42,448 nucleotides of DNA from a virus. Positions 13,481-36,424 of this stretch are shown here, piece after piece (positions within the stretch are counted from its first letter, which is position 1; the number at the start of each line of letters is the position of its first letter). The notes beneath the pieces were generated by a model, which saw nothing but the letters and a program-made list of their open reading frames with translations, was not told where the DNA came from and ran no database searches. The stretch is taken from positions 1 to 42,448 of IMG/VR virus record IMGVR_UViG_3300022744_000937; one strand, 5' to 3'. The translations under genes and the position numbers were made by a program.

Positions 13481-13493
13481 TCCTTGGTCGAAG

Positions 13494-13559
13494 TTTGATA
13501 CTTCATCAAATTAGATCTTAATATATCATCATATTGATGATATGATTTGCGCAAAATCA
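13494..13559. promoter_or_regulatory. Three inverted repeats in the NYN/WYL divergent promoter
   Basis: There are three perfect dyads, each with a 5-bp spacer. TTTGAT/ATCAAA is at 13494-13510, ATATCATC/GATGATAT at 13523-13543, and TGATTT/AAATCA at 13543-13559. A -10-like TATGAT at 13541-13546 overlaps the second and third dyads. The constant spacer suggests binding by dimers of one regulator, most likely the adjacent WYL-domain protein, giving autoregulation and control of the divergent NYN gene. Confidence 0.65.
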
Positions 13560-13563
13560 GTCC

Positions 13564-14490: not shown

Positions 14491-14520
14491 CAAAGTGCAA
14501 AACGAAACGAGAATGACACT

Positions 14521-16077: not shown

Positions 16078-17351
16078 GCGGCGTGAATTTTTTGGCCAAA
16101 CTGCTGGATGGCGTTGATGTGGAATGGAGGGCGCTGGGCGCGGTCGCCAACTTGATTCGTGGTAACGGGCTCCAAAAGAAAGATTTCACCGAAGAGGGCG
16201 TGCCAGCCATTCATTACGGTCAAATTTATACCCATTACGGCCTATACACAACAAAAACAAAATCTTTCGTATCACCCGACTTGGCTAAACAACTAAAAAG
16301 GGTTGAAATGGGTGATGTCGTAATTACCAATACGAGCGAAAACCTTGAGGATGTAGGTAAAGCGCTGGTTTATCTTGGCGAGCGCCATGCTGTTACGGGA
16401 GGACATGCGACCATCTTGAAGCCTGGTGACTGCTTGCTGGGTAAATACTTTGCTTATTTCACCCAAACGGACGAGTTCGCTGTCGAAAAAAGAAAATACG
16501 CAAAAGGGACCAAGGTGATTGACGTTTCTGCCACAGACATGGCAAAAATCAAAATCCCTATCCCCTGTCCAAACAATCCCAAGAAATCGCTTGAAATTCA
16601 AGCCGAAATCGTTCGAATTTTGGATGTATTCGCCGAGCTTACAGCCGAGCTTACAGCCGAGCTTACCACCCGCAAAAAACAATACAACTACTATCGCAAC
16701 CAATTGTTGAGTTTCGAAGAAGGAGATGTGGAGTGGCGAACGCTCGGGGACGTAACAAAGAAATGGTACTCAGGTGGGACACCAACAGCTGGTGAACCAG
16801 AGTACTACGAGGGTGGAAGTATTCCTTGGCTTAGGACTCAAGAGGTTAAATTTTCCGATATCAAAACCACAGAAGTAAAAATAACTCAGGCTGCATTGAA
16901 AAACTCAGCGGCAAAGTGGATTCCTGAGAATTGCGTAATTATTGCAATATCTGGGGCGACAGCAGGCAGATCTGCAATCAATAAAATCTCTTTAACAACA
17001 AATCAGCACTGCGGCTGCTTGGAAATTGACAGCACCAAGGCGTTATATCGCTATGTTTATCATTGGGTGAGTTTTAATTATGAAAATATTAAAGCGCTAG
17101 GACAAGGAGCCAGAGGCGACCTAAATTCAAGCATCATCAAGGGCTTTAAGCTCCCTCTTCCCTACGCAGACGATCCCGAAAAGTCACTTGCAGAACAAGC
17201 ACGCATCGTAGCCATCCTCGATAAATTTGATATCTTGGCTAACTCCATAAGCGAAGGTTTACCCCGCGAAATTGACCTTCGACAAAAGCAATACGGGTAC
17301 TACCGCGATCTGCTGTTGAGCTTTCCTAAGCGGGATTCGATAGAGGCATAG
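16074..17351 (+). CDS. hsdS: Type I restriction specificity subunit HsdS with TAEL repeats
   Basis: This 425-aa protein has two target-recognition domains (about residues 15-160 and 220-370). They are separated by the central conserved region and followed by a matching C-terminal one: [15 protein letters not shown] and [16 protein letters not shown]. The spacer helix carries tandem AELT units (residues 187-198), the element whose copy number sets the half-site spacing in EcoR124I versus EcoR124II. The C-terminal conserved region is nearly the EcoR124 sequence as I recall it, whereas the recognition domains are free to differ. The DNA specificity cannot be read from the sequence. One base separates it from prrC. 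Confidence 0.95.
16632..16667 (+). repeat. Three 12-bp tandem repeats in hsdS (AELT units)
   Basis: Three head-to-tail copies of GCCGAGCTTAC(A/C) start at 16632, 16644 and 16656 and are in frame, encoding AELT three times. Slippage by one unit would add or remove four residues and keep the frame. In the EcoR124I/EcoR124II pair exactly such a change alters the length of the non-specific spacer in the recognition site. Confidence 0.93.
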
Positions 17352-17352
17352 C

Positions 17353-18474
17353 ATGGGCAAGACGCTGAACGAAATTGCACAACAGTTGAAAGACGCCAAC
17401 AAAAAGGTGCAGCTGATCTATGCGTTCAACGGCACGGGCAAGACGCGTCTGTCACGAGCATTCAAAGAATTGATTTCGCCCAAAAACGAGGCAGATGATG
17501 GGTCGCAGTCAGAGTTGGCACAAAAGAAAATTCTCTATTACAGCGCATTCACCGAAGACTTGTTCTATTGGGATAACGATCTAGAGGGTGATGCCGAACC
17601 CAAACTAAAAATACAGCCAAACTCATTTACCCAATGGGTGCTTGACGAGCAAGGCCAAGATCGGAATGTGACCTCCACATTTCAGCATTACACCAACGAC
17701 AAATTGACGCCGAATTTCAACGCAAATTTTTCGGAGGTTAGTTTTTCATTCGAGCGCGGCAACAAAGAACATGAGCCCAACATAAAGATTTCCAAGGGCG
17801 AGGAAAGTAACTTTATTTGGAGCGTGTTTTATTCGTTGATTGAGCAGATGATTTCCGAACTGAACATTGCAGAGCCAGAAAATCGATCAACTGATGTTTT
17901 TAACAATTTGGAGTATGTTTTTGTTGATGATCCGGTCAGCTCTCTGGATGAGAATCATCTGATCGAATTAGCGGTAAATTTGGCTAGCCTGATCAAATCC
18001 AGTCAATCCGATCTGCAGTTCATTGTCACAACGCACAGCCCACTGTTCTACAACGTACTTTTCAATGAGCTTAATGGCAAAGCCTGCTACATGTTGGAAC
18101 GCTTTGAAGATGGGAGCTTTTTACTCGCTGAAAAGCAAGGTGACTCCAACAAGAGCTTCGCCTATCACCTGTATCTAAAGCATGCCATCGAACAAGCGAT
18201 TGTTGAAAACAAGGTCGAAAAGTATCACTTCACTTTACTGCGCAATCTTTATGAGAAAACGGCCAGCTTCCTGGGTTACCCGAAGTGGTCGGAACTTTTG
18301 CCCGATGACAAACAGCTCTACCTGAACCGAGTCATCCAATTCACAAGCCACAGCACGCTATCAAATGAATCCGTTGCAGAGCCAACGCAGGCAGAGAAAG
18401 CGACTATCAAGTTATTGCTCGATCACTTGAAGAGTAACTATGGCTACTGGCAGCAGGAACAACAAAATGGTTGA
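17353..18474 (+). CDS. prrC: Anticodon nuclease PrrC
   Basis: This 373-aa protein has an ABC-ATPase-like N-terminal domain: Walker A NGTGKT (26-31), signature SKGEES (147-152), Walker B YVFVDDP (188-194) and H-loop TTHS (226-229). The C-terminal nuclease domain has Arg297, Glu301 and His333. These correspond to the E. coli PrrC triad Arg320/Glu324/His356 with a constant offset of 23, equal to the length difference. PrrC cleaves tRNA-Lys in its anticodon loop. It is held silent by the associated type IC restriction enzyme and released when a phage such as T4 inhibits that enzyme. The position between hsdS and hsdR is the classical one. Confidence 0.95.
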
Positions 18475-21400
18475 TTACGTCAAACCCATCGCTGAATCTA
18501 GCAATTTCATCGTACTGGATAAATATTGCCAGGAATGGAAGGTGGCAGAAAGCTACCAGAGCGAAAGCGATCTTGAGCGGGAGTTCATTCAGGATTTACA
18601 AAATCAGGGCTATGAATACCTACCCGGTCTTAATGCGCCCGAAGCCTTGCTTGCGAATTTGCGCTTGCAACTTCAAACACTCAATAACGTACAGTTTCTA
18701 GACGGCGAATGGCTGCGTTTTGTTGAGACATGGCTGGACAAGCCAAGCGATGGCATCGTCGAGAAGACTCGCAAGATTCACGACGACTATATCCACGACT
18801 TCGTATTCGACGATGGACGCATCCAGAACATCTACCTGCTGGACAAGAAAAATATCGCTCGCAACAAAGTACAGGTGATTCAGCAGTTTGAGCAGACTGG
18901 CAGTCACGCCAATCGCTATGACGTGACGATTCTGGTGAATGGTTTGCCACTGGTGCAGGTGGAGCTGAAGAAGCGCGGCGTGGCGATTCGTGAAGCCTTC
19001 AATCAGGTGCATCGCTACAGTAAGGAAAGCTTCAACAGCGAGCATTCCCTGTTCAAGTATTTGCAGTTGTTCGTAATCTCCAACGGCACCGATAGTCGCT
19101 ACTTCGCCAACACCACGCAGCGCAACAAAAACAGTTTCGACTTCACCATGAACTGGGCAAAGGCGGACAACAGCCTGATCAAGGATCTGAAGGACTTCAC
19201 GGCCACGTTCTTTCAAAAGCACACCCTGCTCAATGTGCTGCTGCACTACTCGGTGTTTGACGTCAGCAACACTCTGCTGGTGATGCGCCCTTACCAGATT
19301 GCTGCCACCGAGCGGATTCTTTGGAAGATCAACAGCGCGTTCCAGGCCAAGCGCTGGAGTGACCTGGAGGGCGGTGGCTTTATCTGGCACACCACAGGTT
19401 CGGGCAAGACCCTGACCAGCTTCAAGGCGGCGCGGCTGGCCACCGAACTGGACTTCATCGACAAGGTATTTTTCGTGGTGGACCGCAAGGATCTGGACTA
19501 CCAAACCATGAAAGAATACCAGCGTTTCTCGCCAGACAGCGTGAACGGCTCAGACAGTACATTGGGCTTGAAACGTAATCTGGAGAAAGACGACAACAAG
19601 ATCGTCGTCACCACCATCCAGAAGCTCAACAACCTGATGAAGAGCGAGGGTGACCTGTCCATCTACGGCAAGCAGGTCGTGTTCATCTTTGATGAATGCC
19701 ATCGCAGCCAGTTTGGCGAGGCGCAGAAGAACCTCAAGAAGAAGTTCAAGAAGTTTTACCAGTTTGGCTTCACCGGCACGCCGATCTTCCCTGAAAACGC
19801 GCTGGGCGCTGAAACCACGGCCAGCGTGTTTGGGCGGGAACTGCATTCGTATGTGATCACCGATGCCATCCGCGATGAAAAGGTATTGAAGTTCAAGGTG
19901 GATTACAACGATGTCCGCCCACATTTCAAAGTCATCGAGACCGAGCAGGATGAGAAAAAGCTGAGCGCGGCAGAGAACAAGCAGGCGTTGCTACACCCAG
20001 ACCGCATTCGTGAGATCACCCACTACATCGTGAACAATTTCCGGCAGAAGACCCACCGGCTGCAAGCAGGCAATAAAGGTTTCAACGCCATGTTCGCGGT
20101 CAGCAGCGTGGATGCTGCCAAGCTGTACTACGAGTGCTTCAAGGAGCTACAGAAGAACGGTGACAAGCCATTTAAGGTAGCCACCATCTTCTCGTTCGCA
20201 GCGAATGAGGAGCAGGATGCGGTGGGAGACATTCAGGACGAAAGTTTTGATGTGTCGGCTATGAACAGCAGCGCCAAGGAATTTTTGAGCGCAGCAATCG
20301 CCGACTACAACGCGCTGTTCAAGACCAACTTCAGTGTCGATAGCAATGGCTTCCAGAACTATTACCGCGATCTAGCCAAACAGGTTAAATCTAAGGAAAT
20401 CGACCTGCTGATTGTGGTGGGCATGTTCCTTACCGGCTTTGATGCGCCCACACTTAACACCTTGTTTGTGGACAAGAATCTGCGCTACCACGGGCTGATG
20501 CAGGCCTACTCACGCACCAACCGAATTTTTGACGCTACCAAGACCTTCGGCAACATCGTCACCTTCCGTGACCTGGAGCAGGCAACCATCGACGCCATCA
20601 CGCTGTTCGGCGACAAGAACACCAAGAACGTGGTGCTGGAGAAGAGCTACAAGGAATACATGGAAGGCTTCACCGATGCGGCTACCGGAGAAGCGCGGCG
20701 TGGCTTTGTGGAGGTGGTGAAGGAGCTCGAAACGCGCTTCCCCGACCCTGCCGCCATTGAGACGGAAGCCGACAAAAAAGCATTCGCGAAACTGTTTGGC
20801 GAGTATTTGCGCGTAGAAAACGTGCTGCAAAACTATGACGAATTCGCCAGCCTGAAGGACCTGCAAAGTGTCGACATGACCGATCCGGTAGCGGTGGAGG
20901 CGTTCAAGGCTAAGCACTACCTGAATGATGAAAATCTGACCGCGTTGCAAGCCATCACGCTCCCGGTGGAACGAAAAATTCAGGATTACCGCTCCACTTA
21001 CAACGATGTGCGCGACTGGTTGCGCCGGGAAAAAACTTCCAACGAGAAGGAAAAATCCACGATCGACTGGGATGACGTGGTCTTTGAGGTGGACTTGCTG
21101 AAGTCGCAGGAAATCAACCTGGACTACATCCTAGAGCTGATCTTTGAGCACAACAAGAAAGCAAAGAGCAAATCAGAACTTGTGGATGAAGTTCGTCGCG
21201 TAATTCGCGCCAGTTTGGGCAATCGCGCCAAAGAGAGCCTGCTAGTCGATTTCATTAATCAAACCAATCTGGACCAGATTGGTGACAAGGCCAGCGTGAT
21301 CGACGCTTTCTTTACCTTTGCCCAAGCAGAACAGCAGCGCGAGGCCCAGGAGCTGATCAGCACTGAAAAACTGAATGCTGAGGCTGCTCGCCGCTATCTT

Positions 21401-21568
21401 GCCACTTCACTCAAGCGGGAGTTTGCTAGCGATAGCGGCACGGAACTGAACGACCTACTGCCCAAGATGAGCCCGCTAAATCCGCAATACCTGACTAAGA
21501 AGCAGACCGTGTTCCAGAAAATCGCGGCTTTTGTGGAAAAGTTTAAAGGCGTAGGCGGAAAAATTTAA
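18467..21568 (+). CDS. hsdR: Type I restriction endonuclease subunit HsdR (EcoR124-like)
   Basis: This 1033-aa motor and nuclease subunit has a nuclease motif with Asp152, Glu166 and Lys168 (VELKK). Walker A is TGSGKT with Lys314, and the helicase box DECH is at 409-412. A later helicase motif is [10 protein letters not shown]. All fall one residue from the positions known for EcoR124I. The enzyme translocates DNA and cuts at a distance from unmethylated sites. I chose the ATG at 18467, which has an AGGA site 8 bases upstream. An in-frame ATG at 18440 is possible. The start lies inside the end of prrC, so PrrC and HsdR are co-translated. Confidence 0.96.
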
Positions 21569-21608
21569 TCGAGATCAAACAGTTTTCAATCACTTAAAGG
21601 GGAACTTT

Positions 21609-21992
21609 ATGGCAAAGAAATTTCGCATATTCACCAGCTTCGCCATTGAAGACGCTAATTTGCGCACGATGCTCGTAGGTCAAGGTCGCAACAAAAAAAC
21701 ACCGTTTGAATTTGTAGACATGTCTGTAAAGGAACCATGGGACAACGCCTGGAAGACCAACTGTCGCACAAAGATAAAAGGGTGTGATGGCGTAATTGGC
21801 ATCATTACCAATAACTCATCTAAAGCCACTGGACAACTTTGGGAATTGCAATGCGCTTACGACGAGGGCATTCCCGTGCTGTTAATTTATGGCAATGCAG
21901 ACAGGCCGTCGAATTTGCCTGACCCTGTCAAAGGACGCCGCATTAATCTCTGGACATGGGACAATATTTCTGCATTTCTTGACAAACTATAA
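21609..21992 (+). CDS. TIR-like protein (ThsB-like) of a Thoeris-type pair
   Basis: This 127-aa protein matches the TIR-like (MTH538/ThsB) fold. It starts with a beta-strand and FTSFAIED, has CDGVIGIIT in the middle, and a putative catalytic Glu79 in LWELQCAYDEGIPV. It would cleave NAD+ and produce a signalling nucleotide on phage detection. A strong ribosome site (AAGGGGA) precedes the ATG. The next gene encodes a caspase-like protease. TIR plus caspase is the architecture described as type IV Thoeris, in which the TIR-made cyclic ADP-ribose isomer activates the protease. The assignment is by architecture and motifs only. Confidence 0.85.
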   Translation: MAKKFRIFTSFAIEDANLRTMLVGQGRNKKTPFEFVDMSVKEPWDNAWKTNCRTKIKGCDGVIGIITNNSSKATGQLWELQCAYDEGIPVLLIYGNADRPSNLPDPVKGRRINLWTWDNISAFLDKL

Positions 21993-22034
21993 GCAGATTT
22001 TTTGGCTGCCAGTCAGCGCAATGTGAGGAATCCC

Positions 22035-23012
22035 ATGAGAAAAGCATTGATCGTCGGAATCGACCACTACGTTACTGCCTCGCCTCTTTATGGGTGCGTA
22101 AACGATGCGCACTCGGTGAAAGCAGTGCTTGAAAGGCATGCAGACGGTGCAATTAACTTTTCGGTAAAACTACTAACCAGTTCAGGTCCATCTAATACGA
22201 TTTCGAGATCGGAACTAAAAGACGCAGTCAAGGATTTGTTTTCAGGTGATGCAGAAACTGCTCTATTTTATTTTGCTGGACACGGATTCATTGAGGTTAC
22301 CGGCGGTTATCTAATTACCAGCGAGTGCAGATCAGGTGACGACGGGCTCTCGCTGAATGACGTTTTAGCTCTTGCTAACGCATCAGCGGCCAAAAACAAA
22401 ATAATAGTTTTGGACAGCTGTCATTCCGGCATCGCTGGCTCATCTGTCAACAATAAAACTTATTCTGCCGAACTCGCAGAAGGCATCACCATACTTACCG
22501 CATCGACAGCTGCTCAGTACGCCGACGAAAAAAATGGATCGGGAGTCTTCACATCGCTGTTTGTCGATGCACTTGCCGGAGCGGGCGCCAATCTTGTCGG
22601 CGACGTAACGCCAGGAAGCGTGTACGCCCACATTGATCAATCACTTGGCCCTTGGGAACAGCGTCCGGTATTTAAGACAAATGTGAAGAGCTTTGTTTCT
22701 CTTCGCCGAGTACAGCCACCTATCGCGCTATCAGAACTTCGAAGACTGTCTGAACTGTTCCCCCATCCCGGCTTCGAATTTTCACTTGATCCATCCTACG
22801 AACCAGAGATGAAAGGGCGCGATCCAGGAATGCTGCCGCCTGACTCTGAGCACACGAAGATATTTGCAATTTTGCAGAAGTACAACAGGCTCAACCTTCT
22901 TGTACCCGAGGGCGCTCCTCACATGTGGCACGCAGCTATGCAAGGTAAGGCGTGTCGCCTTACTGCTCTAGGTGAGCACTATCGGCGCTTGGTCGAATGG
23001 AATCGAATTTAA
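22035..23012 (+). CDS. Caspase-like (C14) protease, Thoeris-type effector
   Basis: This 325-aa caspase-fold peptidase has the dyad His83 in YFAGHGF and Cys129 in VLDSCHSG. The peptidase domain spans about residues 1-225. The C-terminal 100 residues form a separate domain that could bind the activating nucleotide. I chose the ATG at 22035 with GAGGA 5 bases upstream over an upstream in-frame start at 22002 in the spacer. Together with the TIR gene 42 bases upstream it fits a two-gene abortive-infection module. The likely outcome is broad proteolysis after TIR signalling, by analogy with type IV Thoeris. Confidence 0.87.
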
Positions 23013-25889: not shown

Positions 25890-27311
25890 CTATGCGGCAA
25901 CGACCGCAATCGGAAACGCTTTTCGGACCTGCAGGATAGGAAGCACGACCTGCATGTCCCCGCCAGACTCCACAAACGCAAGACTGATGACGTCAATCAC
26001 GTTCTGTCGTGACGAACGAATAGCATCAGCCTCAATCCGGGTCAAGATCAGCCCTTGGGTCTGGTAGTACAGCGCTGCGGCCATGACCGCCAGGTTGTGC
26101 GCGAACGAGTTGTCGCAGGCTGCGCCCCAGTAAGCGTCTTCCAGAAACAGGCAGGCCCCTTTGCAAAGTTGCACCACTGGGCAACGCGGGCATTCGATTC
26201 GGGTGCTGAAGTGGTACGCCGTATTCAGCGCGATGTCGTCAAATTGCTCAACGTGACCGATCCTGTGATGTGTCGAAGCGCTCATGTTCTGGCAGGTCGT
26301 GACATTACCTTTCATGTCCACAGCAATCGAATCATCCCGGTCCATTCCGCACTTTTGACCCAAAGATTTCAGTGGTCTGGACTGTGCCTGCGCCCGCATG
26401 AACTCGTCGACTTTGTCGCGCATCGTCCCCACCGACATGCCAGCACCTGTCACCAGTTCCCAGAACATCTGGTGGCGATATCGATCGAGATCAGTACCTT
26501 CCAGCGTCAACGATAGACCTCCATGGTCATAGGGCAGCATCACTTCCTCGGTGGCCAGCACAATGGCCTGCACTGGCAGATCGAGCTTTTCAGCGAAAAA
26601 CTGCCGAACTGCCTTGAGGGATTGGTTGTGTCGGTGCAGAACCGTGTTGAAACTCATCCGATCCAGCGGCATGCGCCTGGATACCCATCGCTTGATCTGG
26701 ACAAGCTTTTCAGGATCAGCCAATGGATCCGGGCCACGGTATGACTGAGCAGGTCCGTCATGAGACAAGCCAATCCCGATATCCAACGCTTCCACCCAAG
26801 CCAGTTTTTCATCATCGAATAACGATCCGTTCGTCACGATCGACAACTGAGCATTGGGGTAGCGGCGTTTGACTTCTTCACCCAGGGGCTTGAGCAATTT
26901 CCAGTAAACAAAGGGCTCTCCACCCCAGAACTCGATCTTGACGCCAGCACCCCTGCCATCCTCTCCTCCAGCGAACCATCCCTCGAGTTGCTGCATGAAA
27001 GGCTGAACATCGTCCGGGTGCCCGTCAAGGTCATGGGGCTGGTGCGCCTGTGAGCAGTATTGGCATGCGTAATTGCATTTGAGGCCCAGCTGCAGCTTGA
27101 GATGACGAATGGCCCTTGATTTTCCGGCCGGATTGGAGGGGTGATGCAAATGCCAAAAGGGCTGCCACTGCATGCCCTCCTGGCGAGCAAATGCCTGTGG
27201 CAATGGCAAAGGCTCTCCAGTGTCTTTCCAGACCAGGCTGGAGTCCTCAGGGTTGTAGACGGCCTGTCGCTCAAACCCGTTTTTGCCATTGATGGTGAGT
27301 GTGAATTTCAT
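25890..27311 (-). CDS. Radical SAM/SPASM peptide-modifying enzyme
   Basis: This 473-aa protein has the radical SAM cluster motif C79-x3-C83-x2-C86 (CNYACQYC) in a core with IEFWGGEP, SIVTNGS and GIGLSHDGP segments. The C-terminus carries a complete seven-cysteine SPASM pattern, C-x13-G-x4-C, then C-x2-C-x5-C-x3-C, then C. This matches anaerobic sulfatase-maturing enzymes and RiPP maturases, which hold two extra Fe-S clusters and modify side chains of proteins or peptides. The start at 27311 overlaps the preceding 69-aa gene (ATGA). A family member in a phage late operon is unexpected. Its likely substrate is the Cys/Asn tail of the fibre protein encoded upstream, which is inference. Confidence 0.93.
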   Translation of the reverse strand: MKFTLTINGKNGFERQAVYNPEDSSLVWKDTGEPLPLPQAFARQEGMQWQPFWHLHHPSNPAGKSRAIRHLKLQLGLKCNYACQYCSQAHQPHDLDGHPDDVQPFMQQLEGWFAGGEDGRGAGVKIEFWGGEPFVYWKLLKPLGEEVKRRYPNAQLSIVTNGSLFDDEKLAWVEALDIGIGLSHDGPAQSYRGPDPLADPEKLVQIKRWVSRRMPLDRMSFNTVLHRHNQSLKAVRQFFAEKLDLPVQAIVLATEEVMLPYDHGGLSLTLEGTDLDRYRHQMFWELVTGAGMSVGTMRDKVDEFMRAQAQSRPLKSLGQKCGMDRDDSIAVDMKGNVTTCQNMSASTHHRIGHVEQFDDIALNTAYHFSTRIECPRCPVVQLCKGACLFLEDAYWGAACDNSFAHNLAVMAAALYYQTQGLILTRIEADAIRSSRQNVIDVISLAFVESGGDMQVVLPILQVRKAFPIAVVAA

Positions 27312-27517
27312 GACAAAGATTCCTCGAATGCGATGGGGTATGCCTCTCGGCAAAGCTTTGCCGGATCAGCACCCGGCATCGTTTGGATGTTGAAGACATG
27401 ACGGCCAGAAGCTTTGCCGTCGGGATTGGTGACCAACACAGTCATGCGCAGGTTGCTGTCGTCCACACGGACCACATCTACCTCGTAACCTGGACGGGTA
27501 TGTAAATTCAAAGACAC
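27308..27517 (-). CDS. 69-aa protein coupled to the radical SAM gene
   Basis: This small protein starts with GTG at 27517, preceded by a very strong AGGAGG site and overlapping the end of the oxygenase gene before it. It ends in an ATGA overlap with the radical SAM gene. It looks beta-strand rich with one Cys and no membrane segment. The coupling suggests equal amounts with the maturase. A role as an adaptor or recognition partner is possible, but I see no RRE/PqqD signature. Confidence 0.7.
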   Translation of the reverse strand: MSLNLHTRPGYEVDVVRVDDSNLRMTVLVTNPDGKASGRHVFNIQTMPGADPAKLCREAYPIAFEESLS

Positions 27518-28191
27518 GGCGCCCCTCCTCTGAGCTCGGTGTACAGATCGCTGTAGTTGTGAGAGGCGACCCGAAGGGTCACCACAAGAAGGGTTCGCTC
27601 ACCCTGGGCATTGAAAGGGTTGGTTTCATGCCAGATGCGCGATGGATGCAGTACCACCAGACCGGGAAAGGTTTCGATGTAGCGAACCTTCTCCCAAAAT
27701 GGAAACCCCGCCATTGGGCGGGGGTCCTGCAAGATAAGTTCACCGTCACCGACGGTCCAGCTGCGTTGATCCGGTGGACTTCGTCCTTGCCCGCAATCCA
27801 GATACAGACACAGGACATGGTCACAGGTGTGGTGGTAGTGCGGCTGAGCCCGCATGCCAGGCTGGTAATGCACAGGAATGCATCTAGCCTCGATTTTTAG
27901 CTCCTGGGCATTGCGCACACCATGTGCTTCGAGCAGGTAATTGCGGTAGGTACTCTCCACCCAGAGCTTCCATGGATGCCAGACTGCCGGTGCATGCATC
28001 TCATGATGAGCATGAAACAGATTGAGCTGGACCCTCAGCCTGACGTCCACATCGGGCAAGCCGTGCACGGGTGGATTGGTCTGATGGTCACGAAATCTTT
28101 CGACCGTGTAGCGCCGAAGTTCATCCATTTCAGATGGAGTCCAGGGCGCCGTGTCCTTGAGTACTGGCGTTGGCCAGAGGTATTCGATCAT
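27508..28191 (-). CDS. 2OG-Fe(II) oxygenase-like protein 1
   Basis: This 227-aa protein resembles the putative 2OG-Fe(II) oxygenase family (PF13759-like). A His-rich strand, PHYHHTCDHV (residues 117-126), should supply iron ligands. The distal His188 is in RIWHETNP and the 2-oxoglutarate-binding Arg199 in GERTLLVV. The first ligand pair is not a textbook HxD, so activity is less certain than for the next two. The start at 28191 has GAGGTGG upstream and overlaps the previous stop (ATGA). It would hydroxylate a protein side chain using 2-oxoglutarate and oxygen. Confidence 0.75.
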   Translation of the reverse strand: MIEYLWPTPVLKDTAPWTPSEMDELRRYTVERFRDHQTNPPVHGLPDVDVRLRVQLNLFHAHHEMHAPAVWHPWKLWVESTYRNYLLEAHGVRNAQELKIEARCIPVHYQPGMRAQPHYHHTCDHVLCLYLDCGQGRSPPDQRSWTVGDGELILQDPRPMAGFPFWEKVRYIETFPGLVVLHPSRIWHETNPFNAQGERTLLVVTLRVASHNYSDLYTELRGGAPCL

Positions 28192-28766
28192 GGCGCCACC
28201 TCTGAACCAAACGCCACCGCGATACGCAAGGCGTTGCAATAACGGGAGATCGGACGGACAGCATGGCGCATGCAGCCATTGATCTGGACCATCCGATTGG
28301 GTTTGACTATGGTTGCCGCCTGGATTTCATCCAGATCGTCCAACACCACCAAATCCCCTCCCCAATCCGCGCTCCACTCGGCTACCGGGTACCAGATCAC
28401 GGATCTTGCCGTGTTCTGAAACTCAGTTGGGAAGTCCCTGTGCAGCGAAGCCTCATCTCCGAACGCTTGCACATTGACCCACAGGCGCGTGATCTCTGCG
28501 TTGGGAAAGAACTGCTCTTTGACCTGCAGGGCCACTCGGGCCAGTGGTCCCCCCTGGGCCACAAACGCATCAAAAGTATGTTCTGGCTGCCACGCACCTG
28601 CGTCATAGTGGTGGTTGTGCTTTCCTGGCAGCACAAAATTTCGGTGCCAAAACACCCCAGGAGCCTTGGCATGCGCTTTCCAGCCAAACACCAGGTTCTG
28701 GCTCAACAGCCACTGGCGGCATTCAGCGGTCAGCTCGGGCTCAATCAAGCCGTCAACGATTTGCAT
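28188..28766 (-). CDS. 2OG-Fe(II) oxygenase-like protein 2 (prolyl-hydroxylase type)
   Basis: This 192-aa protein has the double-stranded beta-helix pattern of prolyl 4-hydroxylase-like oxygenases. The iron-binding triad is HRD (His109, Asp111) with His168 in MRHAV, and a following Arg (171 or 175) could bind 2-oxoglutarate. NVQAFGDEASLHRDF and WGGDLVVLDD are typical segments. It overlaps the third oxygenase gene by 14 bases and the first by 4. The likely role is hydroxylation of a structural protein encoded in the same operon. Confidence 0.85.
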   Translation of the reverse strand: MQIVDGLIEPELTAECRQWLLSQNLVFGWKAHAKAPGVFWHRNFVLPGKHNHHYDAGAWQPEHTFDAFVAQGGPLARVALQVKEQFFPNAEITRLWVNVQAFGDEASLHRDFPTEFQNTARSVIWYPVAEWSADWGGDLVVLDDLDEIQAATIVKPNRMVQINGCMRHAVRPISRYCNALRIAVAFGSEVAP

Positions 28767-29352
28767 GGGCTTGTCCCTTCAATGCCTGAACCCGGAACTC
28801 AAAATGGACCTCCACACTCGGCCGGGTACCGTTGTAGGGGTGGGAATGGTGCGCCAGGTAGCTCGGGAAAATCACCAGCAGGCCGGGGTACGGATGGATG
28901 ATTTCCGAGCGCCAGCCTTCCCAGGGCAATTTGCGGCTACCGTAAGCGCCGCTGGGGTTGACCAGCACAAAAGCGCCGGAGTAGTCCTGGCGAGAAGGAT
29001 CTGGCCGAGCATTTCCGTCAATCCAATACACCGCCGAGAGATCGGTGTCTTCGGCATGCAGCGGAATGAACTGACCAGGCTGAGTAATGACCTCTCGAGC
29101 GGTTTGCCACACGGGTTCACACTGGTAGGCGTGCCCAATGGCTTTACGAACCTGATTGACCAGGGGTCTGAAGACGTCACAGCAGCTTTCATGATCGATC
29201 AGAGACTGACGGCTTTTACGCGCCCAGGGCTGCCCATCCCGATTGAGCCGCTGATGAAAATCCATTGCCCCTTTGAGCATCTGATCACGCAGGCCATCCT
29301 CAAAACTCAGTTGCCCTTGGTAGACCCGTGCAGAAAACAGTTCGCGAATCAT
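28753..29352 (-). CDS. 2OG-Fe(II) oxygenase-like protein 3
   Basis: This 199-aa protein is close to the putative 2OG-Fe(II) oxygenase family PF13759. Ligands are expected at His99 and Glu101 or Asp102 in PLHAEDTDLSAVYWI, and at His168/169 in SYLAHHSHPY, with Arg177 after it. The segment PGLLVIFPSYLAHH is characteristic. It overlaps the preceding beta-rich protein gene by ATGA. It is diverged from the other two oxygenases of the operon, so the three probably act on different residues or steps. Confidence 0.82.
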   Translation of the reverse strand: MIRELFSARVYQGQLSFEDGLRDQMLKGAMDFHQRLNRDGQPWARKSRQSLIDHESCCDVFRPLVNQVRKAIGHAYQCEPVWQTAREVITQPGQFIPLHAEDTDLSAVYWIDGNARPDPSRQDYSGAFVLVNPSGAYGSRKLPWEGWRSEIIHPYPGLLVIFPSYLAHHSHPYNGTRPSVEVHFEFRVQALKGQAHANR

Positions 29353-30155
29353 GAAAGGACCACCTGAGCATCGGCGCAGCCGGGGTAGAACTTGAAGCCT
29401 GCTTTCAATCGGACGGTGTCGCCTGCTTGAAGCCCCAGGGTCATGACGGTGACTGTGGTCAGCCCACCCTGCGTTCGGCGTCGACTGACGGGCAGATAGC
29501 CATTAACCGACTCCAGGTGAATTTCCGCATCACGGTTGCTGGGGTTGCCCAGGCCGTCGAGCATCTGAACAGTGAATTCGACTGGATCCCCCGCTATGAC
29601 ATTTGCGGGGGCAATCACCCGCAAGTCTGGAAACTCCATTTCCCTCACCTGAGCGGAGGACTGGTAATCGGTGTGTTCTACATCCGTGGACGCCACACCT
29701 TCAACCAGACATCCTCCAAGCGTGGGATGAAGGTTCACCGTCACGAAGCATTCATCAAAGCGGCTGTCCGCAAAGGGCACGTTAAATCCGGTCAGGAAGT
29801 TCCCGTTCCAGACATGCCCCGAAGCTTCTGGCGCTGTGAAACGCGTGGACAGGGTGTAGACATACAAGGGCAATGGGTCGATGAGCCGTTTTTCTGCCCA
29901 GCGGTAACCGGTCATGAAGGACTGTCGGTCGGACCACCCACGGTTGTTTCTCAGCTCACTATAGGCAAACAACTGCTCAGCAACCACCTGGTAAGTCACC
30001 CCCTCCACAGAGAAGTCAAAAGGCTGATCACTATCCGGACGGTGTCGCAAGCCAAAGCGCATGAGCACCTGCTCAGTCGCCTGGTCCACTTTGAGGTGAA
30101 TGGCGTAATCCAGCGCAGTCGAGAGCTTGCCCGCGCGCACAAGAAAGACTTTCAT
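29349..30155 (-). CDS. Beta-rich phage protein following the tail fibre
   Basis: This 268-aa protein is of unknown family. The N-terminal 170 residues contain YRWAEKRLIDPLPLYVYTLS and look like a globular structural domain. The C-terminal 90 residues resemble an Ig-like/invasin-type beta-sandwich (VIAPANVIAGDPVEFTVQML). The start at 30155 is 9 bases after the fibre stop, with an AGGA site. It may be a fibre-associated structural protein, a fibre chaperone, or another substrate of the modification enzymes. Confidence 0.65.
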   Translation of the reverse strand: MKVFLVRAGKLSTALDYAIHLKVDQATEQVLMRFGLRHRPDSDQPFDFSVEGVTYQVVAEQLFAYSELRNNRGWSDRQSFMTGYRWAEKRLIDPLPLYVYTLSTRFTAPEASGHVWNGNFLTGFNVPFADSRFDECFVTVNLHPTLGGCLVEGVASTDVEHTDYQSSAQVREMEFPDLRVIAPANVIAGDPVEFTVQMLDGLGNPSNRDAEIHLESVNGYLPVSRRRTQGGLTTVTVMTLGLQAGDTVRLKAGFKFYPGCADAQVVLS

Positions 30156-30164: not shown

Positions 30165-31175
30165 TCAGCAACAACCGCAGCAGGCACAGTTGCAATTGCA
30201 GTTCGTTCGACAGTTGAAAGCCGTGTTGCCGCAGTTGCAGTTGGTGTAGCTGCCACAGTTGCAGTTGCAATTGCAGGCTCGGTACCAGCGGTGGTATTCA
30301 CCTCCACCGATCTCGTCTTGGGCCAGGTAGTAACCGTCGTAGTTGTAGCCTGTGCTGGGTACAGCGTTGTAGGCATAGGTTGTTCCCCCTGCACCGTCGT
30401 ATTGGCCAGTGTTAGCGCAGTAGTTAAATCCCAGGCCCCACGTCCACCAGCTGGTATTGGAAGGTTTCCAGTACGTATTGCCTGCGCAGTTGCCGGTCGG
30501 CAAGATTCCGTTGCAGTTGCCCGCCAGGTCGTCGTAGTACTGGTTGCTGCGCCCCATCTCGCCAATATCCTGACCATCGTTCATGCGATAGCCAGTGTTG
30601 CGAGCGTTATCAGCCGCACCGGATTGCGAGGAATAGATCACCGCACCACTGCCCATATACAGATGACCTGTCATCGTGTCACCGGATTTGGCCAATCGAC
30701 TGGACAAATCGATCGGTACGGTGGCATTACCAGAGGCATCCGGTGCGTTGCCATTGACTGAGCGCACAAAGGCCGTGGAGTCATAGCCATCGAGCTTGTC
30801 AGCGTCCGCTGCCTTGGCCGTGATGCCCAGATATGCCGCGTTGTGGTTGTGGCCCAGCGCTGCATACGCCGCATCGTGGTTGTGCCCACTGAGTGCAAAA
30901 CCAGTGGAATCGATGCCGTCCAGCAGGTCAGCATTGGCCACCTTGCCCAAGGTGGCTGAGAGGTCAATGACCATCTTCCACGTGACGGGACTGACCACGG
31001 TCAGGATGTAGAGCTTTTGCTCATCGGTCCTGAAACACGGCATGCCTTGCTGCAGATTCACAGTCGGAAACGCCGTTCCGCTGGAGAGCGAAAGCGCCGT
31101 CTTGTCGTTGTTCAGGATCTGCGACAGCGAGTCCGAGAGCGTCGTCGTGGATGGGATTTCGGTGTAGTTTTGCAT
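30165..31175 (-). CDS. Tail-fibre-like protein with Cys/Asn-rich C-terminal array
   Basis: This 336-aa protein has an N-terminal attachment-like domain. Phage-fibre repeats follow (GHNH at residues 97-100 and 108-111, then LDGYDSTAF and SGDTMTGHLYM), as in many siphophage side or tip fibres. Residues 205-300 form a Gly/Tyr/Trp/Asn-rich region containing Cys221, Cys230 and Cys253, two of them in Asn-Cys pairs. Residues 301-336 are almost only Cys, Asn and Gly: 14 Cys and 10 Asn, mostly alternating, ending CCGCC. Such a tail is not part of any fibre family I know. It heads the operon with the oxygenases and the radical SAM/SPASM enzyme, and is the obvious candidate substrate. Confidence 0.88.
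   Translation of the reverse strand: MQNYTEIPSTTTLSDSLSQILNNDKTALSLSSGTAFPTVNLQQGMPCFRTDEQKLYILTVVSPVTWKMVIDLSATLGKVANADLLDGIDSTGFALSGHNHDAAYAALGHNHNAAYLGITAKAADADKLDGYDSTAFVRSVNGNAPDASGNATVPIDLSSRLAKSGDTMTGHLYMGSGAVIYSSQSGAADNARNTGYRMNDGQDIGEMGRSNQYYDDLAGNCNGILPTGNCAGNTYWKPSNTSWWTWGLGFNYCANTGQYDGAGGTTYAYNAVPSTGYNYDGYYLAQDEIGGGEYHRWYRACNCNCNCGSYTNCNCGNTAFNCRTNCNCNCACCGCC
30168..30275 (-). repeat. Cys-Asn codon array at the end of the fibre gene
   Basis: The 36 codons before the stop are dominated by TGC-AAC/AAT hexamers, arranged in three blocks: CNCNCNC, NCNC and NCNCNC, with a CACCGCC-type Cys/Gly end. The two longer blocks are near-identical at DNA level (runs of CAGTTGCAATTGCAG on the plus strand). 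The array could grow or shrink by slippage or recombination without frameshift. Confidence 0.9.
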
Positions 31176-31186: not shown

Positions 31187-32377
31187 TCAATACCCCTGGG
31201 CAACCCAAGAAATGGCTCCCGTCACGCGGGCGCCAGAGGTGTTTTCCAAAATGGCGGTGAAGCCTGCGGTGGTGACCGTTCCAAGAATTCGAGGAATGGC
31301 CACGGTGGTACCGCCCTTGAAGGTCAGCGTGACCTCCGGCGAGACCCGGAAAGTCCGCACAAAAACGACCGCTACGCCACTGGACGCGGTGACCACCTGC
31401 GCCGTGCCTCGATCGAACACATCGGGCACGTCCACAGTTACCCGCAGGCCATCGATGTAGCCTCGGTCTGCATTGCTTGAAGTCAGGATTGCCCTGAAAA
31501 GCGCCCGCTGGTAGGTGTAGTCGCCCTGGATGAAGTCCCGGAAGTTGGTGTAACCGGGTGGATGACCAGACTCCAGGATGTCCATGAAGTCCTGCTCGGT
31601 GATCTCGGTGTTGGCAACAATCATGTCGCTGATCACCCCATTGGCCCGGCGCCGGTACTGCTCGGCAAGACCAAAGGCCTCGCTGAGCTTCAAAATCTGT
31701 GCGCGCCTGATCGCCTCGCCAATGGCAAAGCCTTCGTTGATGGCACGGCGATACGCGACCGTTCGGCCCAGCGCTTCGGCCAGACTGAATGCCGCGGAGA
31801 TTTGCTTGACCTGCGACTTGACCAGTGCATCGCTCAGCCTGAAGTTTTCAGCCTGTGGCTTGGTCATCCCCTTGGAAGGCTTCTCGGAAAAACTCAGGCT
31901 CTCGGATACCCGCAGGATGAACGCAATGAGGTCCGTATAGGTCTCAGCCAGCGCCAGCGTCTCGTATTTGCGCAATACCAACTGCCGTGCCAGTCCCTCC
32001 CCCACCTGAAACGTCTCGAAGACGGCTTTGGTGCCCGTGCGAGCGTACTTTTCCGTGAACGTCAGGGACTCAACGAAACGCAGCACAAAGGCAATCAGGT
32101 CGGTGTAGGTCTCGACAAAGTTCAGGTTCTCGTACTTGTTGAGTGCCAAAGCCCGGCTGGATTTATCCGAGAAGGTCAGGCTCTCGGAATTGCTCTTGAT
32201 GCCCAATTTCTGAACCAACTCGGCAAAACTCAGGTCAGTGGCCACGGTCAGGGCGTAGACCGCCGGGTAGGCCGTTGTCCAGTTCTTGCCTGCCGTAGCG
32301 CTGCCCCAGGAAAACTTGCCGGAAATCCAGGTGTAGTTGGCCCCCGGCGAGCTGGAGACGTTGACGGTCTCGGCCAT
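31187..32377 (-). CDS. Phage tail/fibre protein with ~19-residue tandem repeats
   Basis: This 396-aa structural protein begins with a small N-terminal domain containing ANYTWISGKFSWG. About ten degenerate repeats of 18-20 residues (about residues 65-247) share the pattern E-x-[LF]-x-[FLV]-x-[ED]. A C-terminal domain follows with a beta-sandwich-like end. The repeats suggest an extended rod. It lies between the small structural protein after J and the Cys/Asn fibre, and the next gene starts 11 bases downstream, so it is probably part of the same tail tip or fibre assembly. Confidence 0.75.
   Translation of the reverse strand: MAETVNVSSSPGANYTWISGKFSWGSATAGKNWTTAYPAVYALTVATDLSFAELVQKLGIKSNSESLTFSDKSSRALALNKYENLNFVETYTDLIAFVLRFVESLTFTEKYARTGTKAVFETFQVGEGLARQLVLRKYETLALAETYTDLIAFILRVSESLSFSEKPSKGMTKPQAENFRLSDALVKSQVKQISAAFSLAEALGRTVAYRRAINEGFAIGEAIRRAQILKLSEAFGLAEQYRRRANGVISDMIVANTEITEQDFMDILESGHPPGYTNFRDFIQGDYTYQRALFRAILTSSNADRGYIDGLRVTVDVPDVFDRGTAQVVTASSGVAVVFVRTFRVSPEVTLTFKGGTTVAIPRILGTVTTAGFTAILENTSGARVTGAISWVAQGY
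31637..32185 (-). repeat. Tandem protein repeats in the tail protein
   Basis: About ten units can be aligned, for example ESLTFTEKYARTG, ETLALAETYTDLIAF, ESLSFSEKPSKG and SEAFGLAEQYRRR. Two longer blocks (residues 81-110 and 137-166) are strongly similar with a period of 56 residues, indicating duplication of a three-unit block. They encode a likely fibrous shaft. Confidence 0.75.
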
Positions 32378-32390: not shown

Positions 32391-32837
32391 TCAGCTCATG
32401 GTGAAGGTGAAAACAGCCGTCAGACTGTCGTCCACGCCTTTGTTCACCACCGGGAAAACGACCCGATCGAACATGGCGCCAGCCGAGGCTGCATTGAAAA
32501 CGCCCGCCTCGGTGAGCGCACCAGTGGCATCACCCGCTGGATAACTAGCCGTGAAAGTGAACACCTTGGTGCCAGCCGTATGGGCATACGTGGCCGCATT
32601 GCGCTTGATTTCGGTGACCAGGGCCGTCTGAGTGGCGGCAGCGGTCGTGGAGCCAGTGCCCACCGCAATCCAGCCCATGACACCGGGACGGCTGGCCGAA
32701 TTGCCAATGGCATCGGCCACAAAGTCAAAGCCGCCATTGACGATGATGTTGTCTTTGTGCACCACCTCGACTTCGCCTGTGGGCTTGGCCAGCAGCAGCG
32801 TGATTGAGCCTTTGATGCTCATGCCTTCTTCAATCAT
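32391..32837 (-). CDS. Small phage structural protein after J
   Basis: This 148-aa protein starts at the ATG at 32837. An ATG at 32822 is also possible. A longer frame from a TTG at 32918 is rejected because it runs through the terminator at 32856-32893. The sequence is beta-rich with Ala/Thr/Gly segments (VGTGSTTAAATQTALV and LTEAGVFNAAS) typical of tail-tip or fibre base proteins. No precise family was recognised. Confidence 0.7.
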   Translation of the reverse strand: MIEEGMSIKGSITLLLAKPTGEVEVVHKDNIIVNGGFDFVADAIGNSASRPGVMGWIAVGTGSTTAAATQTALVTEIKRNAATYAHTAGTKVFTFTASYPAGDATGALTEAGVFNAASAGAMFDRVVFPVVNKGVDDSLTAVFTFTMS

Positions 32838-32855
32838 GGAGTTTTCCGTTTCTTC

Positions 32856-32893
32856 AAACAAAACGGGCGCTGCACCATTCGATGCAACGCCCG
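32856..32893 (-). terminator. Intrinsic terminator after the J gene
   Basis: On the minus strand CGGGCG-TTGCA and TGCAG-CGCCCG form a 10-bp stem with one mismatch and an 8-base loop, followed by TTTTGTTT. It lies 20-60 bases after the J stop. It would separate the core tail genes from the fibre genes, implying read-through by antitermination or a local promoter. Confidence 0.82.
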
Positions 32894-32914
32894 GGTTGGG
32901 GTTCTGGGTTACGT

Positions 32915-35900
32915 TCAATACAGCTTGAGGACCGTGTATCCGGCAGTGGGTTGCAAAGGACTGCTTGCGCTTTGCACATCGCCGCCCATCTTTCCGACAA
33001 AGAGCCTGCGTTCAGTGGCCGTCTGACACACACCAACGCAAATTCGGTCGCTGACACTCACGGTGTACGGCACCACGATCCGGTTAAACAAGTGGTCTTC
33101 CAGAAAGAAGCTGCCTGCCGCCGCATCGAAGCCCACAAGCAGGCTCACCCCTGCACCAGATGCTGTCCAGATGACCGAGGTGGTGATCTGGTTCGGGATG
33201 AACCAAAAGCTCACATGGAACACCCCCGGGATGCTCACGCCCCAGGAAACCCGGGTCGTGTCCTTGATGAGTACCCCACTGCCGTACCGCCCGTCGCCAT
33301 AGCTCACGCCCACGGCCTCCCCACTGGCGGGGCTACCGTACCCTGCCAGCGCACCATTGAGGCGCCAGCCGTACAGCTCTCCGGCCTGCAATGCATCTTC
33401 GCGCGCCATCTGAAACCTCGCTTCGATGCTTTTGAGCGCGCCGTCATAGGTCCATTGCCGTTTGGCAGCATTGCTGCTCCAGACATAGTTCGCTGTCGAC
33501 CAGGTTTCTCGATCATCCAGCGTGGCCCCGATGCTGGCCAACAGGGTGTTTTGCGCCCGGTAGCTGGTGGGCAGATTCACCTCGAACAGGTACTCGGACT
33601 GCGCCACGCCACTGTCCATGCGCAGCACATCCAGGCTGTTGACCGACTCGACCGATGCGAAATGCTTCACCCCTGGAAACCGGGTGGCCTGTGCATCGAT
33701 GGTGACCAGCAGGTTGGCGTTCTGGGGCTGGGCCACCACCGTCGAGACGAAGGTGGCCTCGTCCGAGTAGATGCCTGGCGAGGCGATTGCCTTGATCCAG
33801 AAATTGCGCTCACCGTCAAAGCCTGAAGGCAAAGTGAAGCTGCTGGACTTGACCTCGGCAATGAAGATCGAGGTGTCCCACGCCGTGCCTTCTCGCAGCT
33901 CATAGGCCACCACCTCCGGTTCAGGATTAGGCAGCCAGCGAAACTCCAGCCGGTTGGCCGACTGGACCACATCAAACTGCCGCACTGCGGCTGGTGCCAG
34001 CAGGAGCAACTCGAAGGTAGCGACATGCTGGCTGTACTTGCCAGAGGTGTCAAAGGCCCGGATGAAGTAGTTGTACCGACCTGATTCGCTTTGATCATGC
34101 ACGAGCTGGGTCCCAGCGGTCTGCCCAACCAGTGTGCCTGCATCCCAGCCCGCGCCCACTCTCACCTCGTACCCTGCCAGATCGGCATCCGTGTTGGCGC
34201 TCCAGCTCAGCAGCAGATCGGTCGTGCGGCGCAGCACCGCAAAGTCCTGCACATCATCGGGCGGCTGCAACTTGCCAAGGATGGTCTGGCTCAAAGTGGC
34301 CGAGGCCCCAAGCTTTCCGGACACTCCCACAGCCCGAACCGTGAAAACATAATCCCCGGCCTCGGCGTTTCGAATCTCCAGATAGGTATTCGAACTCCGG
34401 GGCAAGGTGACGGTGTTGCCGCCATTGACCCGGTAGCTCACCTGGTACTCCAGGGCGCCGAAGACCTGCTCCCATCCCAACTGAATGAGCACCAGCGCCT
34501 GATCCTTGACCCGGTACAGGCTCTCGGTGACCAACAGGCCCGTGGGCGCCACAGGCGTTGTGGAGAGCACTGTGATATCACGCGGCTGCAGTGCCAGCCC
34601 CCGCTCAATGGCGTCGTACTTGCTCGGATTGTGAGCCAGTGCTGTGACTTCATGGATGCCTGGCTCGCTCTCGGCGACCTGCACCACCCTGAACAGTTGT
34701 GCCTCCACTTGGGTGGATGCCAGCACCCAGATGGCACCCACCTGAGGTGCCAAGGAGAATGCGCTCGTCACACCGACCGTGCGGCCAGACAGGGATCCGA
34801 CTTGGCGCTCTTCCACCACTCCCGTGGGCAGCAGCACAGAGATGCGCCACGAACCGGCGGGCAGGTCCTGATCCAGCGTGACGCTTATCGTGGTGGCCGC
34901 AGCGATGCGTCCGCCCAAGCGCAGGCCACCCCGGCTGCTGTCTGCCACCTTGATGACATCGCCGGGACGAACAACAGCGCCTTCCAGACCCGTACGGAAG
35001 GTGATGATTTCCGATTCGGACTGTTCGGAATACAGCAGCCACTTGCCCACCCGGTGGGCTTGACCTCGGGAGGTGCAGCCCATGGCCACCACATCGGCCT
35101 GAACCACGCCATAGCGGGCAATGCCTGCGATGTCTTCGACGTATTCCACCTTCTGACGGTAGAAATCATCCGGATCCACCCAGCTGACCAGAGCCACCGT
35201 GTGCCGGGCTTTGGCAGACGATCCTTGGTAGGCGAACTCTCCACCGATGACGTTGGCAGCCGTGAACTGATAGACGGGATCCTGGGGTGCATCCTGCGTG
35301 ACCGTGATTGCTCCACCAGACCAATAAGCCATGCCCCTGAAAATCGAGGCCATGTCCTGCACAACCTTGTAGGCCTGCTCGCGGCTTTGCAGATACAGAT
35401 TGCAGGTAAATCGCGGCTCATAGCCACCCAGTCCATTGGGCACGAGTTCGTCACAGTAGCGCGCCACCCGGTACAGCGCCCACTTATCCACCTGCGACTC
35501 GGGAATGAAACTGCCCAGACCGTAGCGGGTATTGGTCACCAGGTCATAAAAGCACCAGGCAGGGTTGTCTGTCCACGCCACCTTGAAGGTGCCGTCCCAG
35601 ATGCCGCTGTACGACCGGGTCTCGGGAGAGTAATTCGAGGGGATGCGAACGCGCAGGAGCTTGAGGTCATAGCTGCGCCTTGGAATCGAGGTGAACTGAG
35701 AGGCATCCACCCGCAAGGCCATCAATGCGCTGTTGGGGTAACGCAGCTTGCTTTCGATTACCTCGGTATACGAGTCCAGAAATGTTTTGTTTTGCAAGCT
35801 GGTCTGCGTCGAGTCGGCCGTGATGCGGCGCAGGCGCACATCCCAAGGACCAGCGCCAATGAGCGGGACGTAGTAGCTGCGCTGGTACCGCGAAGTGGTT

Positions 35901-36424
35901 TTGCCCGAGACCGTGTCGGAGACCACCTGCACATACCCGGCTCCCCGCGCCTGCACGTCGATCGCGTAGCTGACCGAAGTGCCGTTCAGGTCACCGTTGG
36001 TAGTGTCTTGCAGCGTAAGCGTCGGTATGCTGACCTTGATGCGCACGGCATCCACGTCAGGGTCAGTGATGGAGCGCACCACCGGCTGATTGGCCTTGCA
36101 CTCCACCCCAACAGCCACTTCGTTTTCCACAGCGGAGAAGCCGGGGATGTAGCTTTGTTGCTGGGTGCCAGGGCGGGTTTCGAGCGTTACCCCCGTGAAG
36201 TTGTAGCTGCCGTCCGGATTCTGGATCGGGGTGTCGTCCAGGTAGACGGATTGCAGGTTTGCGGCCAAGCCCTCAATCTCACCCTCGCAGACGAGGTCAA
36301 CCACCCTGGCATAGGCCTTGGAGCGCAGGCTGTCGGGCGCTTCCTGTGCCACACGTGCGCTGCCACCCCCACCCTTTCCACCGCCACCGGCGCCAATGAT
36401 CAGAGAAGTGCTCTGTGTGCTCAT
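32915..36424 (-). CDS. J: Tail tip / host-specificity protein J (lambda gpJ-like)
   Basis: This 1169-aa homologue of lambda gpJ begins with a Gly-rich N-terminus. The conserved J core follows (about residues 25-560), with LVCEGEIEGL, DDTPIQNPDGSYNF, WDVRLRRITAD and NPAWCFYDLVTNTRYGLG. Fibronectin-type III-like domains lie near 600-900. The C-terminal 250 residues look like a lectin/laminin-G-like sandwich (SWGVSIPGVFHVSFWF), probably the receptor-binding part. The start overlaps the gpI stop (ATGA). It forms the central tip and determines host binding in lambda-like phages. Confidence 0.95.
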   Translation of the reverse strand: MSTQSTSLIIGAGGGGKGGGGSARVAQEAPDSLRSKAYARVVDLVCEGEIEGLAANLQSVYLDDTPIQNPDGSYNFTGVTLETRPGTQQQSYIPGFSAVENEVAVGVECKANQPVVRSITDPDVDAVRIKVSIPTLTLQDTTNGDLNGTSVSYAIDVQARGAGYVQVVSDTVSGKTTSRYQRSYYVPLIGAGPWDVRLRRITADSTQTSLQNKTFLDSYTEVIESKLRYPNSALMALRVDASQFTSIPRRSYDLKLLRVRIPSNYSPETRSYSGIWDGTFKVAWTDNPAWCFYDLVTNTRYGLGSFIPESQVDKWALYRVARYCDELVPNGLGGYEPRFTCNLYLQSREQAYKVVQDMASIFRGMAYWSGGAITVTQDAPQDPVYQFTAANVIGGEFAYQGSSAKARHTVALVSWVDPDDFYRQKVEYVEDIAGIARYGVVQADVVAMGCTSRGQAHRVGKWLLYSEQSESEIITFRTGLEGAVVRPGDVIKVADSSRGGLRLGGRIAAATTISVTLDQDLPAGSWRISVLLPTGVVEERQVGSLSGRTVGVTSAFSLAPQVGAIWVLASTQVEAQLFRVVQVAESEPGIHEVTALAHNPSKYDAIERGLALQPRDITVLSTTPVAPTGLLVTESLYRVKDQALVLIQLGWEQVFGALEYQVSYRVNGGNTVTLPRSSNTYLEIRNAEAGDYVFTVRAVGVSGKLGASATLSQTILGKLQPPDDVQDFAVLRRTTDLLLSWSANTDADLAGYEVRVGAGWDAGTLVGQTAGTQLVHDQSESGRYNYFIRAFDTSGKYSQHVATFELLLLAPAAVRQFDVVQSANRLEFRWLPNPEPEVVAYELREGTAWDTSIFIAEVKSSSFTLPSGFDGERNFWIKAIASPGIYSDEATFVSTVVAQPQNANLLVTIDAQATRFPGVKHFASVESVNSLDVLRMDSGVAQSEYLFEVNLPTSYRAQNTLLASIGATLDDRETWSTANYVWSSNAAKRQWTYDGALKSIEARFQMAREDALQAGELYGWRLNGALAGYGSPASGEAVGVSYGDGRYGSGVLIKDTTRVSWGVSIPGVFHVSFWFIPNQITTSVIWTASGAGVSLLVGFDAAAGSFFLEDHLFNRIVVPYTVSVSDRICVGVCQTATERRLFVGKMGGDVQSASSPLQPTAGYTVLKLY

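Follow-up and report, generated by a model that had tools for sequence, protein, structure and literature searches.

Within the known radical SAM superfamily, the SPASM maturases of RiPPs (e.g., CteB, PapB and NxxcB) combine a CX3CX2C motif with the cysteines of an auxiliary cluster, are encoded near the gene for a Cys-rich substrate and act on small leader-core peptides. The links formed in such systems include the Cys-Asn C-beta thioether of NxxcA (PMC8326336). In Cys-Xn-Asp, PapB can cross-link the Cys and the Asp for n as low as 0, i.e., when the two are directly adjacent (PMC9413430). QhpD, which acts in quinohemoprotein amine dehydrogenase maturation, forms radical SAM thioethers within a functional protein as opposed to a released peptide. 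Among phages, fibre C-termini that undergo autoprocessing are represented by the S74 chaperones, T5 pb1 and the K1F endosialidase, and some fibre tips are known to hold iron in HxH sites, as in the His-x-His iron needle of T4 gp37 (PMC11705849). Here we describe a phage module that resembles the RiPP systems in the cysteine motifs of the enzyme and in the proximity of a Cys-rich gene, but differs from them in that the proposed substrate is a virion tail protein with a C-terminal target, the candidate unit is an adjacent Asn-Cys pair and the enzyme matches no NCBIfam equivalog. Like QhpD, its enzyme would operate within a functional protein; QhpD, however, has another host protein, lacks arrays and belongs to a bacterial enzyme-assembly pathway.

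The window, i.e., the whole 42,448-base stretch analyzed, is an IMG/VR virus record whose minus strand encodes lambda-type tail genes (tape measure and gpJ) followed by a 336-aa ORF (30165..31175, read from 31175 to 30165). We infer that this ORF is a tail fibre from its place downstream of the lambda-type gpJ and its weak tail-fibre PHROG matches (best 1.5e-4); no Pfam domain was identified in it. Its C-terminal sequence, RWYRACNCNCNCGSYTNCNCGNTAFNCRTNCNCNCACCGCC, ends in an array of Asn-Cys and Cys-x-Cys units (residues 301-336; 30168..30275, minus strand), the predicted site of modification. Of the last 36 residues, 14 are Cys and 10 are Asn, with 9 Asn-Cys pairs among them, bearing out the Cys/Asn-rich end described in the initial annotation. 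The protein has 18 Cys in all, and in 20,000 shuffles of its sequence this end never received 14 or more of them. The two earlier pairs that it had pointed to, at Cys221 and Cys230 (30486..30518, minus strand), are likewise each preceded by Asn, and the near-duplicate DNA blocks that it had called longer do exist, with TGCAATTGCAACTG present twice in the array DNA, but are short. The array runs to the stop codon with neither an S74 nor a Hint domain after it, and no processing site is evident in this fibre. Homologues of the fibre were recovered from prophages, IMG/VR contigs and the Achromobacter phages JWF and 2-1. Across the close homologues the residues of the array hardly vary, whereas the Cys, Asn, Gly and Arg codons drift synonymously with changes in their third positions, indicating that selection acts on the protein rather than on a DNA repeat.

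The genes around the fibre form a minus-strand series. Upstream lie a lambda gpJ-type tail tip protein (32915..36424; PF24801 5.3e-46, PF13550 1e-28), a 175-aa tail-associated protein (32391..32918; phrog_5417 7e-23, the tail fibre family phrog_4176 5.2e-14) and a 396-aa protein (31187..32377), which is probably a virion protein judging by its position and a weak PHROG match. After the fibre, the series continues with a 268-aa protein (29349..30155) and three 2OG-Fe(II) oxygenases: A (28753..29352; PF13759 3.5e-6, above the cut-off; phrog_81 4e-14), B (28188..28766; PF13640 9.6e-6, 0.1 bit under the cut-off; also FlmC-like at 1.6e-11, far under the cut-off of that model) and C (27508..28239; PF13759 4.9e-6, above the cut-off; phrog_81 5.3e-12). 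Thereafter come a 69-aa conserved protein (27308..27517), retained next to the enzyme in nearly all close relatives, and the radical SAM/SPASM enzyme itself (25890..27353; PHROG 1802), beyond which are probable lysis genes, including one for a glucosaminidase. The peptide export and protease genes of SPASM RiPP systems were not seen in the module of the window. The same record also carries a dense plus-strand defence island (5896-23012), with an Avs2-like protein (PADLOC 1.2e-174), type I restriction-modification genes on either side of a PrrC-like one (1.9e-149), and a caspase-domain protein (4.3e-22) adjoining a 127-aa gene. At its left end (956-4292) is a large serine recombinase with Resolvase and Recombinase domains, followed by two proteins that appear by sequence to be ParB-like.

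We collected relatives of the enzyme from IMG/VR, bacterial genomes and the isolated Achromobacter phages JWF and 2-1, and scored an array wherever at least four alternating Cys occurred in frame on the same strand, considering loci with at least 4 kb upstream of the enzyme. An array was found on the same strand at 121 of 142 loci, one of which (L297) is a false array formed by a shadow ORF, and on the opposite strand at 4 of 142. These locus counts hold near-duplicates arising from overlap within IMG/VR (e.g., L012 and L152); clustering the enzymes at 85% identity leaves 114 representatives, of which 91 have an upstream array. Eight loci scored as array-less in fact hold shorter or variant arrays, e.g., a C-terminal YNCNCNC or NCNCSNC, and 14 have no recognisable array. 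In 186 of 190 cases the carrier gene precedes that of the enzyme, and the median distance between carrier and enzyme is 1.4 kb.

The reciprocal search used a CNCNCNC DNA pattern and ignored the enzyme; this Asn-Cys pattern replaced a generic seven-fold Cys-x-Cys one, which gave mostly out-of-frame or simple-repeat matches. Every C-terminal array with at least 4 kb of downstream sequence (22/22) has the enzyme downstream, and the 13 C-terminal arrays recovered by this search without an enzyme all have less than 4 kb downstream. Among 301 genomes of one bacterial family, five carry the enzyme: in four it is accompanied by a genuine array, C-terminal or pre-Hint, and the fifth has the enzyme only, which belongs to the array-less chromosomal clade. 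None of the 296 enzyme-less genomes of that family has such an array; the other pattern matches examined were out of frame, of low complexity or, in one case, at a cut contig end (Fisher p 1.5e-8 for co-occurrence). Thus, to the question raised in the initial annotation, namely whether a SPASM enzyme is always near such an array, the answer is affirmative for the 22 testable arrays and for all four array genomes in the family sample. The refuting case that it named, an array in a genome devoid of modification genes, was not found, within the limits set by arrays with less than 4 kb of downstream sequence. A survey of 50,697 phage records yielded close enzyme relatives only in Achromobacter phages JWF and 2-1 (three records), and no plasmid match was found. 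The radical SAM enzyme of Campylobacter phage CPt10 is distant (68 bits), with no NCNCNC array in the 10 kb examined.

Together, these comparisons show that, at the level of gene content, the phage radical SAM/SPASM enzyme and the C-terminal or near-C-terminal Asn-Cys arrays of tail proteins constitute a near-obligate pair; array and enzyme form a widespread module. The two are very probably an enzyme and its substrate. Of the 14 loci without an array, 10 are bacterial chromosomal contigs that form separate clades on the enzyme tree, and the five array-less loci that were inspected lie outside tail modules, some of them near transporter or secretion-type genes. Six chromosomal relatives (L295, L297, L298, L299, L302 and L304, from Variovorax, Ramlibacter and others) form one clade with no nearby array. 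Two further relatives, from Sulfuritalea and Sulfuricella, are found, respectively, near genes that look by sequence like ABC-transporter and HlyD-type genes (L243) and near a 2,333-aa protein (L250), which suggests a secretion context for these enzymes.

Single-linkage clustering of the carrier parts that precede the array gives 15 groups, between which no similarity is detectable; by this comparison the array is shown to be a transferable feature that has been attached to carriers lacking detectable homology. At four loci (L201, L202, L214 and L219) three consecutive small carriers each end in an array and are accompanied by one enzyme. Many carriers are full-length tail proteins, and in some lineages the predicted processing sits downstream of the array: where the array is not C-terminal, a self-cleaving Hint or S74 domain usually comes next, such that the array would become the mature C-terminal end. 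For instance, in phage JWF the Hint domain starts at the last Cys of the array, and in two marine relatives an S74 domain follows immediately after it (L031, PF13884 2.4e-13 from residue 159; L027, PF13884 2.1e-11 from residue 132). Both S74 domains have a Ser with a Lys at +5; in T5 pb1 the cut precedes that Ser and is activated by the Lys (PMC4690869). The array carriers depart from the known autoprocessed fibre C-termini in that cleavage would expose a Cys array and in that Hint replaces S74 in other lineages; when mapped on the enzyme tree, the Hint label requires at least 5-6 changes. Judging by these domain types, it is probable, by a good margin, that cleavage bares the array and that it is exposed at the mature C-terminus.

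Several relatives encode additional enzymes. The two marine loci with S74 domains (L027, 679-17306; L031, 993-16977) have 25-27 alternating Cys (KCKCKC) before that domain, and adjoining the array are tryptophan halogenase genes, many genes that appear by sequence to encode 2OG-Fe-like oxygenases and a second radical SAM protein; this gene set constitutes a putative large virion-modification cluster. Another locus (L029, 5084-6591) has two fatty-acid-desaturase-like genes between carrier and enzyme, the first matching PF00487 at 4.2e-16. A second, shorter radical SAM protein adjoins the main one in L023 (7001-7885), L024 (7001-8053), L345, L346 and L189, and the arrays of L023 and L024 are mostly of the form YCSYCSYCSYC.

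The enzyme of the window matches the radical SAM domain above the cut-off (PF04055 5.7e-7) and the SPASM model TIGR04085 with 33.7 bits against a cut-off of 27, and aligns with phrog_1802 over residues 74-435 (2.5e-53); homologues suggest that it starts at 27311 (MKFTLTING). The PHROGs label for this family is radical SAM domain-containing protein, of the kind 'other'. The CX3CX2C motif is present in 209 of 209 full-length members and the auxiliary-cluster pattern CX2CX5CX3C..C in 208 of them. The solved structure that best matches the AlphaFold2 model (pLDDT 89.8) is the thioether-forming maturase CteB (Z 23.1, rmsd 4.4, 351 aligned residues), after which come ChlB and anSME; the alignment with CteB begins at model residue 13. 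The N-terminal domain is predicted to be a three-stranded sheet without the usual RRE helices, and a canonical RRE was not identified in the model. None of the NCBIfam equivalogs reaches its cut-off for this enzyme: the PapB and SCIFF maturase models score far below their curated cut-offs, as does that of QhpD (TIGR03906, 3.4e-14).

The best-surviving alternative to thioether formation accepts that the enzyme acts on the array but assigns it another cysteine chemistry, namely formylglycine formation as in the anaerobic sulfatase maturases, C-alpha sactionines or another oxidised Cys. The enzyme resembles anSME in both sequence and fold over nearly its full length (profile match at 7.2e-17, with CteB also matching over almost the full length; model comparison Z 19.6, rmsd 3.8, 322 aligned), and that of JWF is indeed annotated as an anaerobic sulfatase-maturating enzyme; moreover, a C-alpha reaction would accept varied spacer residues. 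Nevertheless, the anSME residue next after the second Cys of the auxiliary cluster, an Asp that we take to be the catalytic base, is Gln in all 182 readable members of the phage enzyme family, arguing against formylglycine formation, and the array of the window has no sulfatase motif (Cys-x-Pro/Ala-x-Arg). We regard these other chemistries, taken together, as unlikely. Ranthipeptide-like thioethers are the likeliest single option, one that we put forward tentatively, by analogy with CteB, NxxcA and PapB, and at somewhat less than even chances.

The composition of the arrays bears on this chemistry. In distinct contexts, the residue before the first array Cys is Asn in 117 of 134, and Asn occupies the first spacer in 126 and the second in 114 of the 134; farther along, most spacers are Asn, Ala, Asp or Lys. 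The bias extends far upstream of the array and includes Cys221 and Cys230 of the window: 578 of 808 carrier Cys outside the array (72%) are preceded by Asn, against 132 of 4151 (3%) in other proteins of the same loci. These counts show Asn directly before Cys to be the preferred unit, as far as sequence preference can tell, though not a required one. The Ala, Asp or Lys spacers sit awkwardly with a thioether to Asn only, and since non-Asn spacers are tolerated the chemistry may be residue-independent.

We consider it quite unlikely that the tip is instead a metal-binding one, in which a trimeric fibre stacks metal ions with its Cys-x-Cys pairs and the enzymes merely tune the site. The alternation would face the Cys to one side of a beta strand, and the HxH iron sites at fibre tips are a precedent (PMC11705849); the array, like T4 gp37, presents alternating potential ligands at the fibre tip, but these are Cys rather than His, are linked to a radical SAM enzyme and lie at the extreme C-terminus. 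A metal site by itself calls for no SPASM radical SAM enzyme, although array and enzyme occur together almost without exception, and Asn at -1 in isolated Asn-Cys pairs distant from the array is no metal-site signature.

Less probable still, and in our estimate very unlikely, is that the array is unmodified, its thiols remaining free or forming a disulfide net after lysis, and that the enzyme targets another protein such as the 268-aa partner. The abundance of Cys at the tip would suit a disulfide net, and the partner family also occurs at 66 of the 91 non-redundant array loci; however, it goes undetected at the remaining 25, all of which have an array, the three-carrier loci repeat the arrays, and the alignment of the partner family has no conserved Cys column. 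The partner was also considered as an RRE, but its modelled fold (AF2 pLDDT 94.4) has an N-terminal beta domain and, in its C-terminal half, an Ig-like domain: residues 175-268 resemble Ig-like domains, including that of the phage Chi neck (8vhx_H; Z 10.8, rmsd 2.2, 90 aligned). This fold makes a tip partner or chaperone a likelier role. Taken alone, metallothionein-like or disulfide options account for neither the dedicated SPASM enzyme nor the Asn at -1. Finally, these genomes abound in AACTGC repeats, which produce numerous matches out of frame, but an origin by chance or as an artefact of the TGCAAC hexamer is so improbable that we consider it refuted, as the in-frame arrays keep their residues under synonymous drift, lie C-terminally or before a self-cleaving domain, and accompany the enzyme.

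The preferred reading, then, is that the enzyme modifies the Asn-Cys array at the fibre tip, which the pairing and residue preferences make likely. The enzyme would bind the nascent or folded fibre tail and alter its Asn-Cys units by radical chemistry; in the thioether version, a C-beta thioether would join Cys to Asn (or to a different residue at or close to position -1), each link lowering the mass by 2 Da. The 2OG-Fe oxygenases, a family present in 43 of the 91 representative loci and lacking in about half, would add hydroxylations, and the 268-aa Ig-like protein may accompany the tip as its partner or chaperone. Such reactions would leave the fibre with a covalently locked tip of unusual chemistry; by its position, a role for it in adsorption or stability has about an even chance. 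The RiPP-like cross-linking core proposed in the initial annotation thus has strong genetic backing from the enzyme pairing (22/22 arrays, and all four array genomes of the family sample), whereas the chemistry (thioether, metal or disulfide) is one that we infer.

A literature search that covered few subscription journals found no description of an array-enzyme pairing on phage tail tips, and neither NCBIfam nor Pfam has an entry for such a pairing. The usual view of phage adsorption is of recognition through unmodified protein tips. We lean slightly toward the broader proposition that the module represents a general route for finishing the host-contact tip of phages, whereby a mobile Asn-Cys tail on unrelated tail proteins would be turned into a cross-linked, non-proteinogenic surface by a dedicated radical SAM enzyme along with oxygenases and, in some marine phages, halogenases, with self-cleaving domains baring the tail. 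PHROG 1802, hitherto annotated as 'radical SAM domain, other', becomes a testable candidate virion maturase, and the presence of the module in the cultured Achromobacter phages JWF and 2-1 makes these practical test systems. If the proposal is true, sequence alone would fail to predict part of the host-contact surface of many environmental phages and prophages, and chemists would gain a maturase for adjacent Asn-Cys units within a large folded protein.
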